DNA of 36,261 nt from Nanobdellati archaeon. GTDB lineage: Archaea > Nanobdellota > Nanobdellia > Woesearchaeales > GCA-2686295. The stretch lies in contig JACNFY010000019.1 in the NCBI GenBank assembly GCA_014384375.1, positions 1 to 36,261 of the forward strand. The letters run 5' to 3'. A program made the translations under genes and the position numbers. Of the stretch, positions 18,678 to 21,757 are shown in pieces; positions within the stretch are counted from its first letter, which is position 1, and each line of letters opens with the position of its first letter. The notes under the pieces are model-generated. The model searched no databases. It saw nothing but the letters and a program-made list of their open reading frames with translations, and was not told where the DNA came from.

Positions 18678-18763
18678 GCGAGGGTGTCAGAGTCTGGTCA
18701 AATGACTACGGTCGAGGGCCGTAGGCCTTAGTGGCTGCGCGGGTTCGAATCCCGTCCCTCGCA
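18678..18763 (+). tRNA. tRNA-Leu (GAG)
   Basis: A class II tRNA of 86 nt without an encoded CCA. The acceptor stem is GCGAGGG (18678-18684) with CCCTCGC (18756-18762) and discriminator A, as expected for leucine (archaeal serine tRNAs have G). The three-pair D stem and CTGGTCAAA loop are leucine-like. The anticodon stem TACGG/CCGTA encloses TCGAGGG with GAG at 18714-18716, a long variable arm follows, and the T arm is GCGGG-TTCGAAT-CCCGT. Position 33 is C (18713) instead of the near-universal U. A tRNA-Leu between rpoD and rpl18e is also seen in haloarchaea. Confidence 0.93.
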
Positions 18764-19679: not shown

Positions 19680-20075
19680 ATGAAACCAATACATGTATCT
19701 GGAAAAAGGAAGAGAGCAGTTGCAAGAGTAACGTTGAAAAATGGAACTGGAAAAATAACAATTAATAATCTAAATCTCGACTATTATGAACCAAAACTTG
19801 CAAGGATGAAGATAAAAGAACCCCTTTTGTTAGCAAAAGACATAACTGACAGAGTAGATATTGAAGTGAATGTGTTTGGCGGTGGCTATATGAGCCAGGC
19901 AGATGCAGCCAGATTAGCGATTGGAAGAGCCCTCATAAAATACAATTCGAAACTAAAAGATTTATTCCTGAATTACGACAGGCAGTTATTAGTTGCAGAT
20001 GTTAGAAGGAAGGAATGTTCAAAGCCAAACAGTCGCGGCAATGCTCGGTCGAAGCGTCAAAAGTCGTATCGTTAA
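19680..20075 (+). CDS. rps9: 30S ribosomal protein S9 (uS9) with recoded 3' end
   Basis: A small-subunit head protein whose C-terminal tail reaches the P-site tRNA. It starts VSGKRKRAVARVTLKNGTG, has GGGYMSQADAARLAIGRAL, and ends RSKRQKSYR, the typical archaeal terminus, so the protein is intact at 131 residues. The ribosome binding site is GAGGTGA. Of 14 arginine codons, the first 10 are AGA/AGG and the last 4, all after base ~20029, are CGC, CGG, CGT and CGT. That abrupt switch right before an inserted endonuclease gene suggests that the 3' end came in with the insertion. Confidence 0.95.
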   Translation: MKPIHVSGKRKRAVARVTLKNGTGKITINNLNLDYYEPKLARMKIKEPLLLAKDITDRVDIEVNVFGGGYMSQADAARLAIGRALIKYNSKLKDLFLNYDRQLLVADVRRKECSKPNSRGNARSKRQKSYR

Positions 20076-20121: not shown

Positions 20122-20159
20122 GTGCTATCCACTAATCACTGGACATCCTCGCATAGCAC
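20122..20159. repeat. Hairpin between rps9 and the endonuclease gene
   Basis: GTGCTAT (20122-20128) pairs perfectly with ATAGCAC (20153-20159); inside, CCA (20129-20131) can pair with TGG (20140-20142). It sits just before the endonuclease promoter. It may end the ribosomal transcript or belong to the inserted element. Confidence 0.4.
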
Positions 20160-20167
20160 TTATAAAG
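20160..20167 (+). promoter_or_regulatory. TATA box of the LAGLIDADG endonuclease gene
   Basis: TTATAAAG, the same core as the rps13 operon promoter, is centred about 25 bases before the GTG at 20189. This predicts a leaderless mRNA and supports the GTG start. An inverted repeat AAAGAA-TGAG-TTCTTT (20164-20179) overlaps the box. Confidence 0.55.
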
Positions 20168-20188: not shown

Positions 20189-21562
20189 GTGAATTTAACT
20201 AATCAAGAATTGCAAATTAAGAGATTATCTTTTAGTAAATCCAGTTCTAATCTTAGGATTATTTTAAATCCCGAGTTCAAAAAAGAAATTTTTGATGAAT
20301 TATTTAAGAAACATTCTTCTTCAAAATCTTCTGTAATATTAAACATTTCTAGAGGCACGTTATACCATTATAAAAATAATAGGGTAGAATCTGTTTCGTT
20401 CACAATAATTGAAAAAATTAGAAGATTATTAGATTTAAGTAAAGAAGAGATTAATAAGAATTCAATTGAAATTCTAAAGAGTGAAGAAGTCAGGGATAAA
20501 GGTTTAGTTTTCGGAAGGAAATTTAGAAGAATACAATTAAAAAAATTTAGAGAGAAAATTCCGAAAGTCAAGAATATTGTTGAAGATAACTTCTTAAATT
20601 TAGAAAAATGGTTTTCTTTTTATAAGAAATTAATTGATTTCGGATGTAGAGAGATTAAAAGTATTCAACGAGAAAACAACATATTAAAGGTTAAGTATAC
20701 AAATTATGCAAAAGGAAAGAAAAAATTATTTACAATATTGTTACCTAGAAAAATAAAATTAGACGAAGATTTTCAATATTTCTTTGGTTTATGGGTTGGG
20801 GACAAAGCAGGGGGAGGAAGAATTGGAGTGATTAATAAAGAGAAAGTATTAAACCTTTATACTGCAGAGTACTTGAGGAAACTTTATCAAAGACCTGAAT
20901 TTGTTTTATATATCCACAAGAAAACAAAGTTACGTAAGTTAAATTACGATATTGATAAAATAATTAGAATAAATAGTTCGTACCAAGGATACGCTATTTC
21001 TGTTCATGCAACAAATGGTGTTCTTAAGTCATTCTTTGAGTATTTAGAGAAAGATTTAGATGAGTTTCTTAATTTAATTCCAAACAGAAACGTGTTCTTT
21101 GCAGGTCTCTTTGATGCAGAAGGAAACGTTTTTTTAGAAGACCATTGTTTCAGATGGTCTTGTAAGGACCAGATTAATATCAAAATTTTTTCTAGTTATC
21201 TCAAGGAAACGGGTTTGTTTCATAGGTTTGATGGTTCAAACATAGTTACTTACAATAAAGAAGTTTTCTCTAAAAGCATTCTCCCTTTTATAAGGCATCC
21301 AGTGAAAATAAATGATTCACAGTTTATTTGTTTTAAAAAAGGAATATTAAATGAAAGGTTTAAAGAAATTTTAAGAGTTATTAACAATAATCCTGGGAAA
21401 AAAGCTAATGAAATTGCGAAAGCTTTAAAAAAAGTCAAGCTTTTCGCTCAACTAAGATTTTTAGAGGACAATAATTATATTCACAGAAAGAGTTATCCTC
21501 ATAAGATTTATATCACTAATAAAGGTGTGGCTTCTCTTAGCCACGGAGGGAAGGATTTATGA
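20189..21562 (+). CDS. Free-standing LAGLIDADG homing endonuclease
   Basis: A 457-residue protein. The N-terminal ~90 residues contain a helix-turn-helix-like segment (VILNISRGTLYHYKN). The catalytic part carries two LAGLIDADG-type motifs, FFGLWVGDKAGG (198-209, less canonical) and FAGLFDAEGN (304-313, clear), which form the two-helix core with acidic residues. The C-terminal ~65 residues look like a winged helix (NEIAKALKKVKLFAQLRFLE). No intein splicing residues (N-terminal Cys/Ser, C-terminal HN) frame it, so it is not an intein. It begins at a GTG about 25 bases from a TATA box and overlaps the rpoN start codon (ATGA). It splits the normally adjacent rps9 and rpoN, and both flanks look recoded, as expected of a homing insertion. 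Confidence 0.88.
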   Translation: MNLTNQELQIKRLSFSKSSSNLRIILNPEFKKEIFDELFKKHSSSKSSVILNISRGTLYHYKNNRVESVSFTIIEKIRRLLDLSKEEINKNSIEILKSEEVRDKGLVFGRKFRRIQLKKFREKIPKVKNIVEDNFLNLEKWFSFYKKLIDFGCREIKSIQRENNILKVKYTNYAKGKKKLFTILLPRKIKLDEDFQYFFGLWVGDKAGGGRIGVINKEKVLNLYTAEYLRKLYQRPEFVLYIHKKTKLRKLNYDIDKIIRINSSYQGYAISVHATNGVLKSFFEYLEKDLDEFLNLIPNRNVFFAGLFDAEGNVFLEDHCFRWSCKDQINIKIFSSYLKETGLFHRFDGSNIVTYNKEVFSKSILPFIRHPVKINDSQFICFKKGILNERFKEILRVINNNPGKKANEIAKALKKVKLFAQLRFLEDNNYIHRKSYPHKIYITNKGVASLSHGGKDL

Positions 21563-21757
21563 TTATACCTGTCCGCTGTTTTTAGCTGTGGAAAACCAGT
21601 AGGTCACCTCTGGGAAGAATACCAGGAAAGATTGAAGAAGAAAGAAGATACAAAAAAAATCCTTAACTCATTAGGGTTGGAAAGATACTGTTGCAGAGCA
21701 TTATTCCTCGGGCATGTTGATTTGATTGATACTGCAGCACAATTTAAGAAGTTTTAA
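21559..21757 (+). CDS. rpoN: RNA polymerase subunit N (Rpo10), interrupted by a one-base frameshift
   Basis: A small zinc-binding subunit of archaeal RNA polymerase (the eukaryotic Rpb10 counterpart). Starting from the ATG inside the endonuclease stop, the reading is MIIPVRCF then a TAG at 21583-21585. Dropping one T from the run at 21579-21583 restores a perfect 65-residue RpoN: MIIPVRCFSCGKPVGHLW, then the conserved ERYCCRALFLGHVDLID. Zinc ligands CxxC and CC are present only if the frame is restored. The gene is essential elsewhere, so this is a sequence error, a real slippage site, or a lesion left by the endonuclease insertion. The arginine codon before the break is CGC; after it both are AGA. 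GGAGGG upstream serves as ribosome binding site. Confidence 0.85.

Follow-up and report, generated by a model that had tools for sequence, protein, structure and literature searches.

Why would a ribosomal protein gene change its arginine codons abruptly just before its stop codon? The question is raised by rps9 in a contig of a Nanobdellati archaeon of the Woesearchaeales (JACNFY010000019.1, assembly GCA_014384375.1), of which the whole analysed stretch, 36,261 nucleotides long, is referred to here as the window. Downstream of rps9 lie a gene for a predicted LAGLIDADG homing endonuclease, which we name HEG1, and rpoN, a core transcription gene that carries one extra base. We propose, with a probability of roughly 0.6, that the locus is a homing cassette with a cleavage-resistant target, and that the indel in this target is offset by obligate +1 recoding of rpoN.

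An abrupt codon switch at the 3' end of rps9

19680..20075, + strand: rps9 (uS9), the host gene on the left of the cassette (Pfam Ribosomal_S9, E-value 6e-35)
20034..20075, + strand: CGN-rich tail of rps9, 13 codons plus stop, the probable imported left edge of the cassette (codon comparison with congeners; similarity to other inserted loci beyond the stop)

The arginine codons of rps9 comprise ten AGR codons followed by CGC (20034), CGG (20046), CGT (20055) and CGT (20070), all four CGN codons lying within the last 13 codons of the gene (20034-20072). The preliminary description of this DNA had reported the same order of AGR and CGN and put the change at about 20029; the switch itself holds, while its start belongs at 20034. 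CGN accounts for 38 of the 380 arginine codons (10%) in the 29 other open reading frames (ORFs) counted in the window, against which background the probability of four CGN codons in four is ~1e-4, and for 3 of 59 in six neighbouring ribosomal and rpoD genes; the chance that the four CGN codons would be the last among the 14 arginine codons of rps9 is 1/1001. TCG, which makes up 3.4% of serine codons outside rps9, is clustered as had been described, with two of the three TCG codons of rps9 in the tail. In the window CGN was not frequent towards the ends of ribosomal genes: the final 15 codons of the same six neighbours hold nine AGR and one CGN. A chance cluster, with its closeness to the endonuclease gene coincidental, would involve only four codons of a kind that does occur in the genome; in view of the probabilities above, and of a tail that differs from congeners exactly beside an insertion, we regard it as highly improbable, reject simple chance as the source and consider the switch confirmed.

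Where the encoded residue is the same, 1-3 of 9-11 tail codons are identical to those of five congeners, compared with 35-47 of 80-88 in the body of the gene, and the C-terminal tail reads ..GQARAKRQKSYR in a congener versus ..GNARSKRQKSYR in the window. The protein end is broadly canonical, as first described, although the change is not purely synonymous, with two or three tail residues differing from congeners; likewise, the earlier view of a DNA change under which selection preserved the protein is largely sound, with the correction that the evidence favours an imported 3' end plus a lost Shine-Dalgarno constraint over codon-by-codon synonymous drift.

A probably mobile endonuclease gene between rps9 and rpoN

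20189..21562, + strand: HEG1, LAGLIDADG endonuclease gene, 457 amino acids, GTG start by alignment (motifs, Pfam, structure model)

The HEG1 protein has an N-terminal helix-turn-helix, two LAGLIDADG motifs and a C-terminal winged helix. The acids of the two motifs, GLWVGD (D205) and GLFDAEG (E311), are invariant in ten homologues, and on the strength of both motifs with their catalytic acids HEG1 is predicted to be a LAGLIDADG homing endonuclease. A sequence search of the PDB with HEG1 returned no match, its best PDB fold match, a weak one, is to an endonuclease-bearing intein, NCBIfam and PHROGs gave weak matches only, and the last residues of the protein are disordered in the predicted model. 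An intein was rejected, as stop codons part the endonuclease ORF from both rps9 and rpoN.

Homologues of HEG1, sought in 353 genomes of the order and one public collection, were found in eight further genomes of the order and in one further archaeal metagenome-assembled genome (NZCU), every one of them between rps9 and rpoN. The name HEG1 is used for the closest nine, which are mutually 44-69% identical. The tenth, in genome G014, is a distant homologue (~27% identical) at the same site; rpoN of G014 lacks the extra base and has ACG in place of the usual ATG, its start probably being an upstream GTG. The two genes are adjacent in most relatives, and all five genomes of the same genus as the window have a gap of 6-69 nt and no endonuclease homologue. 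Congeners of carriers mostly have rps9 adjacent to an in-frame rpoN, the remaining ones carrying other endonucleases, and so both empty and occupied alleles are present at one fixed site. Identity among HEG1 proteins did not track host kinship: the window and G281, which belong to different families, share 61% identity, whereas the value is 60% for G280 and G281 and 46% for G178 and G181, each pair from a single genus. This is the pattern expected of a homing gene that moves horizontally. Viral carriers of the endonuclease were looked for and none was found.

A conserved extra base in rpoN

21559..21582, + strand: rpoN codons 1-8 (MIIPVRCF), the recoded start, its ATG overlapping the endonuclease TGA at 21560-21562 (sequence)
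21583, + strand: extra T in rpoN, creating UAG in frame (21583-21585) with C after it (TAGC at this position in all 11 lineages)
21584..21757, + strand: remainder of rpoN, codons 9-65 plus stop, in the +1 frame (Pfam RNA_pol_N; third-position diversity in the +1 frame)

Each of the nine HEG1 carriers has an ATGA in which the endonuclease stop and the rpoN start overlap; in each, rpoN begins with ATGATYATACCWRTCCGYTGTNNN, followed after codon 8 by one extra T before AGC. A search of the 353 genomes for a pattern allowing any extra base at this site gave exactly 10 matches, all of them TAGC, namely the eight HEG1 carriers of the order and the genomes G183 and G267; NZCU brings the extra base to 11 lineages, with TAGC at the shift site in 11 of 11. 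The base was thus present in 8/8 HEG1 carriers of the order and in 2 of the other 345 genomes (Fisher P=8e-15, related genomes being treated as independent). A TAG-specific search in a 371-genome sample of the phylum revealed no new case. Sequencing error was rejected, the base being common to 11 lineages.

After a skip of one base, the product of rpoN is 65 amino acids long in all 11 lineages. Diversity at the three codon positions was 0.07/0.00/0.24 ahead of the extra base in frame 0 and 0.24/0.11/0.52 past it in the +1 frame, the latter close to that of 51 non-carriers, indicating that both segments are under protein-level selection, in different frames. Just past the shift, the sequence matches that of congeners (TGTGGAAAACCAGTA in both the window and G002), and some silent positions are fixed in carriers beyond what the protein needs (ATA, NTC, CGY, TGT, AGC). 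The codons before UAG vary among UUU, UGG, CUU and GUU.

These data bear on the view that rpoN is simply broken and that another copy or a shortened RpoN serves instead, which draws some support from the fact that the carrier genomes are drafts, mostly 78-95% complete. Eleven assemblies, however, have the same base at the same position, purifying selection downstream is normal with 65 amino acids recovered after one skip in 11/11, and the first zinc cysteine, preserved by frame 0 in 11/11, would be missing from a shortened protein. As rpoN was single-copy in all nine carriers tested, G014 included, a second copy was rejected, and we hold a broken gene to be very unlikely.

We consider it unlikely, too, that RpoN is made by an RNA-level event in place of ribosomal frameshifting, either removal of the extra base from the RNA or splicing of an intron. 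Bulge-helix-bulge (BHB) introns and some group I introns do exist in archaea (PMC6125680), but neither the window region nor any of ten carrier loci gave an Rfam match at the gathering threshold, on which ground a known RNA family or group I intron was rejected, and no BHB structure was found around the insertion by eye. Nor is the rpoN 5' exon seen duplicated upstream, in the stretch from rps9 to the endonuclease gene, and the TGGT, CTTT and GTTT sites are not ones at which slippage on a T run could work.

RNA elements that persist after loss of the endonuclease

21526..21545, + strand: hairpin UGUGGCU/AGCCACG in the 3' end of the endonuclease gene, immediately before the Shine-Dalgarno of rpoN (covariation)
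21545..21550, + strand: GGAGGG, Shine-Dalgarno-like run for rpoN (sequence; G-rich run in 11/11)

Across the 11 lineages, five of the seven hairpin pairs are changed on both sides and 92% of pairs are formed, compared with only 32-45% in slid controls when the whole structure is counted. A start-codon helix (GGAY/RUCC) was weak and is not relied on. In G183, where HEG1 has been lost, its final codons alone remain as a mini-ORF, MTITNKGSKVLLRGGKDL, that has its own Shine-Dalgarno and overlaps the rpoN ATG, and both the hairpin and the extra base are kept; in G267, a second type of endonuclease gene (HEG2) is followed by a mini-ORF with the altered peptide MILITKKGMAAHLAMGARIL, and the hairpin, the G-rich run, the overlap and the extra base are all retained. 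Retention of the hairpin and overlap in two genomes without HEG1 indicates conservation of the RNA independently of the nuclease, and G183 further indicates that the HEG1 protein is unnecessary for rpoN expression there. Because the hairpin and mini-ORF persist after endonuclease loss, both probably help recoding.

Two probable causes for the rps9 tail

The codon switch appears to have two sources. Where rps9 and rpoN are separated by 8 nt or less, the last sense codon of rps9 is AGG in 17 of 17 junctions, 16 of them reading AGG TGA, while it is AGG in none of the 13 insert-bearing loci. In the close junctions of non-carriers AGG TGA apparently has a second role as the Shine-Dalgarno of rpoN, so that an insert separating the two genes would free the last rps9 codon, and that codon only, from this constraint. 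The remainder of the tail is consistent with import of a left flank, short and variable in length, probably brought with the cassette: the rps9 tail and the bases past the stop resemble those of other inserted loci (TCGTATCGTTAAAGCAGTAAT in the window, TCGTACCGTTAGAGTAGTAAC in G280 and TCGTACCGATAGAGTAGTAAC in G181), and TAGAGTAGTAAC is identical across G280, G181 and G185, which span two families. As regards replacement of the flanking genes, the rpoN start is common to carriers and the rps9 tail is foreign to the genus.

A switch unrelated to transfer, in which the 3' end of rps9 was released from its Shine-Dalgarno role and its codons drifted or were locally selected, is a doubtful but more serious competitor than those above; the contrast of 17/17 and 0/13 speaks for it, as does a tail for which no close donor was found. 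It accounts for the last codon only, however, as CGC, CGG and the first CGT sit 15-36 nt upstream, and the flank in the window continues to resemble inserted loci from other families beyond the stop codon.

A hot spot with a shared upstream motif

20137..20166, + strand: promoter-like motif before the endonuclease gene, CACTGGACAT-N14-TTATAAA (common to nearly all inserted loci)

HEG1 is one of several endonuclease types at this junction. HEG2, found in G177, G182 and G185 as well as in G267, which is of another family, is LAGLIDADG-like by eye with no clear Pfam match, and a third type, HEG3, is present in G172 and clearly matches LAGLIDADG_3. The leader MNSxRNQKI(C/S)L is common to HEG1, HEG3 and the HEG2 proteins of G177, G182 and G185; in the form MNSYRNQKI it precedes unrelated-looking endonuclease cores in G172, G182 and G185, and the core in G267 looks unrelated as well. 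The junction is a hot spot, and its endonuclease cores seem to have been swapped beneath one leader. The HEG2 frame of G177 continues into rpoN with no intervening stop (..FSTSNMIIPIRCFSCGK), which predicts either a fusion protein or an internal start. G267 has a further ORF with LAGLIDADG-like motifs between rpoD and rpl18e of the same operon (L053:1045-1938), and in the window a tRNA-Leu (GAG) lies between rpoD and rpl18e (18678-18763), inside the ribosomal operon.

Most inserted loci have the CACTGGACAT...TATAAA upstream region in common. CACTGGACAT exactly 14 nt ahead of TWTAAA occurs at five places in the genome of the window, four of them outside the locus (contigs C1, C14, C17 and C31), and at 1-16 places in most relatives tested. 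A small sample of the genes that follow it included other LAGLIDADG genes and genes that by eye resemble those of DNA metabolism, which makes a shared promoter or regulon possible. A cassette-private operator was rejected, the promoter-like motif being widespread in these genomes.

A proposed model of homing with obligate recoding

We envisage that a free-standing LAGLIDADG cassette homed into the rps9-rpoN junction of a Woesearchaeales-type archaeon. HEG1 would cut the conserved start of an empty rpoN, near TGY NNN / AGY TGY, and repair would copy in the endonuclease gene together with the resistant rpoN start of the donor on the right and a short donor stretch of rps9, the CGN-rich tail, on the left; the final AGG codon, no longer the Shine-Dalgarno site of rpoN, would then be free to change. 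Resistance would come from the recoded, one-base-longer target, as suggested by its association with HEG1. Having reinitiated where ATGA joins the two genes, ribosomes would pass over the extra base at UAG C by a +1 frameshift and yield full-length RpoN, by which the host would survive. We infer both cleavage and frameshifting from comparative sequence data. The invariant TAGC over varied P-site codons suggests, speculatively, that the A-site matters more than P-site slippage, and tRNA-Ser GCU might perhaps decode UAGC as a four-base codon, its A37 pairing with the extra U.

Several observations weigh against this proposal. The LAGLIDADG match of the window protein in Pfam (LAGLIDADG_3) is below the curated cut-off, which the G014 protein exceeds, and the whole-chain fold match is weak (TM 0.28). 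The codon ahead of UAG is UGG, ill suited to simple P-site slippage, in G183 and two carriers. G014 and the HEG2 and HEG3 insertions in genus g134 are without the extra base, so that not every endonuclease at the site requires it. Finally, the evidence for import of the rps9 tail is a short tract for which no near-identical donor was found.

Relation to known systems and significance

The nearest working analogue is probably T4 mobA/gene 60, in which a homing-endonuclease insertion lies beside an essential gene with extra nucleotides that are skipped in translation, and in which the insert may have given protection from the nuclease (PMC5009743). The arrangement is alike, with an endonuclease gene next to an essential gene bearing extra sequence, whereas the T4 case involves 50 nt, the HNH enzyme MobA and a phage, and ours one base, a LAGLIDADG enzyme and the archaeal chromosome in several families. 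For replacement of the end of an essential gene, the closest parallel would be the WHO elements at yeast FBA1, also free-standing LAGLIDADG-type genes, whose homing swaps the end of the essential gene for a resistant version (PMC7282813). WHO elements replace a 3' end and leave fragments, whereas the target presumed for HEG1 lies at the 5' end of the gene that follows it and includes an indel, and fragments of rps9 or rpoN were not seen at the locus. Neither system is archaeal and neither has a single-base insertion.

The locus resembles programmed +1 frameshifting at the stop codons of bacterial RF2 and eukaryotic antizyme in that an in-frame stop is present and the full protein follows only after a +1 shift, the site of G178 being CUU UAG C and that of RF2 CUU UGA C. 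It differs in having UAG rather than UGA, no Shine-Dalgarno-like stimulator at the RF2 spacing, a variable P-site codon and a link to a mobile cassette. Archaeal BHB and group I introns with LAGLIDADG genes share the nuclease class, but here no intron structure was found and the gene lies between two ORFs, not within one.

The novelty of these findings is provisional. In the open literature, which leaves most subscription papers outside its coverage, the only paper found on homing endonucleases in Woesearchaeota concerns group I introns in rRNA (PMC6125680), and nothing was found that combines frameshifting, DPANN and homing endonucleases. We give even odds to the further claim that a selfish cassette made the essential rpoN permanently dependent on +1 frameshifting, a dependence outlasting the endonuclease itself, as an archaeal counterpart of T4 gene 60 with a single-base protective insertion. 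Recoding on archaeal chromosomes is barely documented, a 2016 review listing few archaeal cases, mostly -1 or viral (PMC5009743), and a conserved, apparently obligatory +1 shift in a core transcription gene would, if true, be a strong case. It would also mean that a selfish nuclease can entrench itself by means of an indel that blocks cutting and yet is forgiven by the ribosome.
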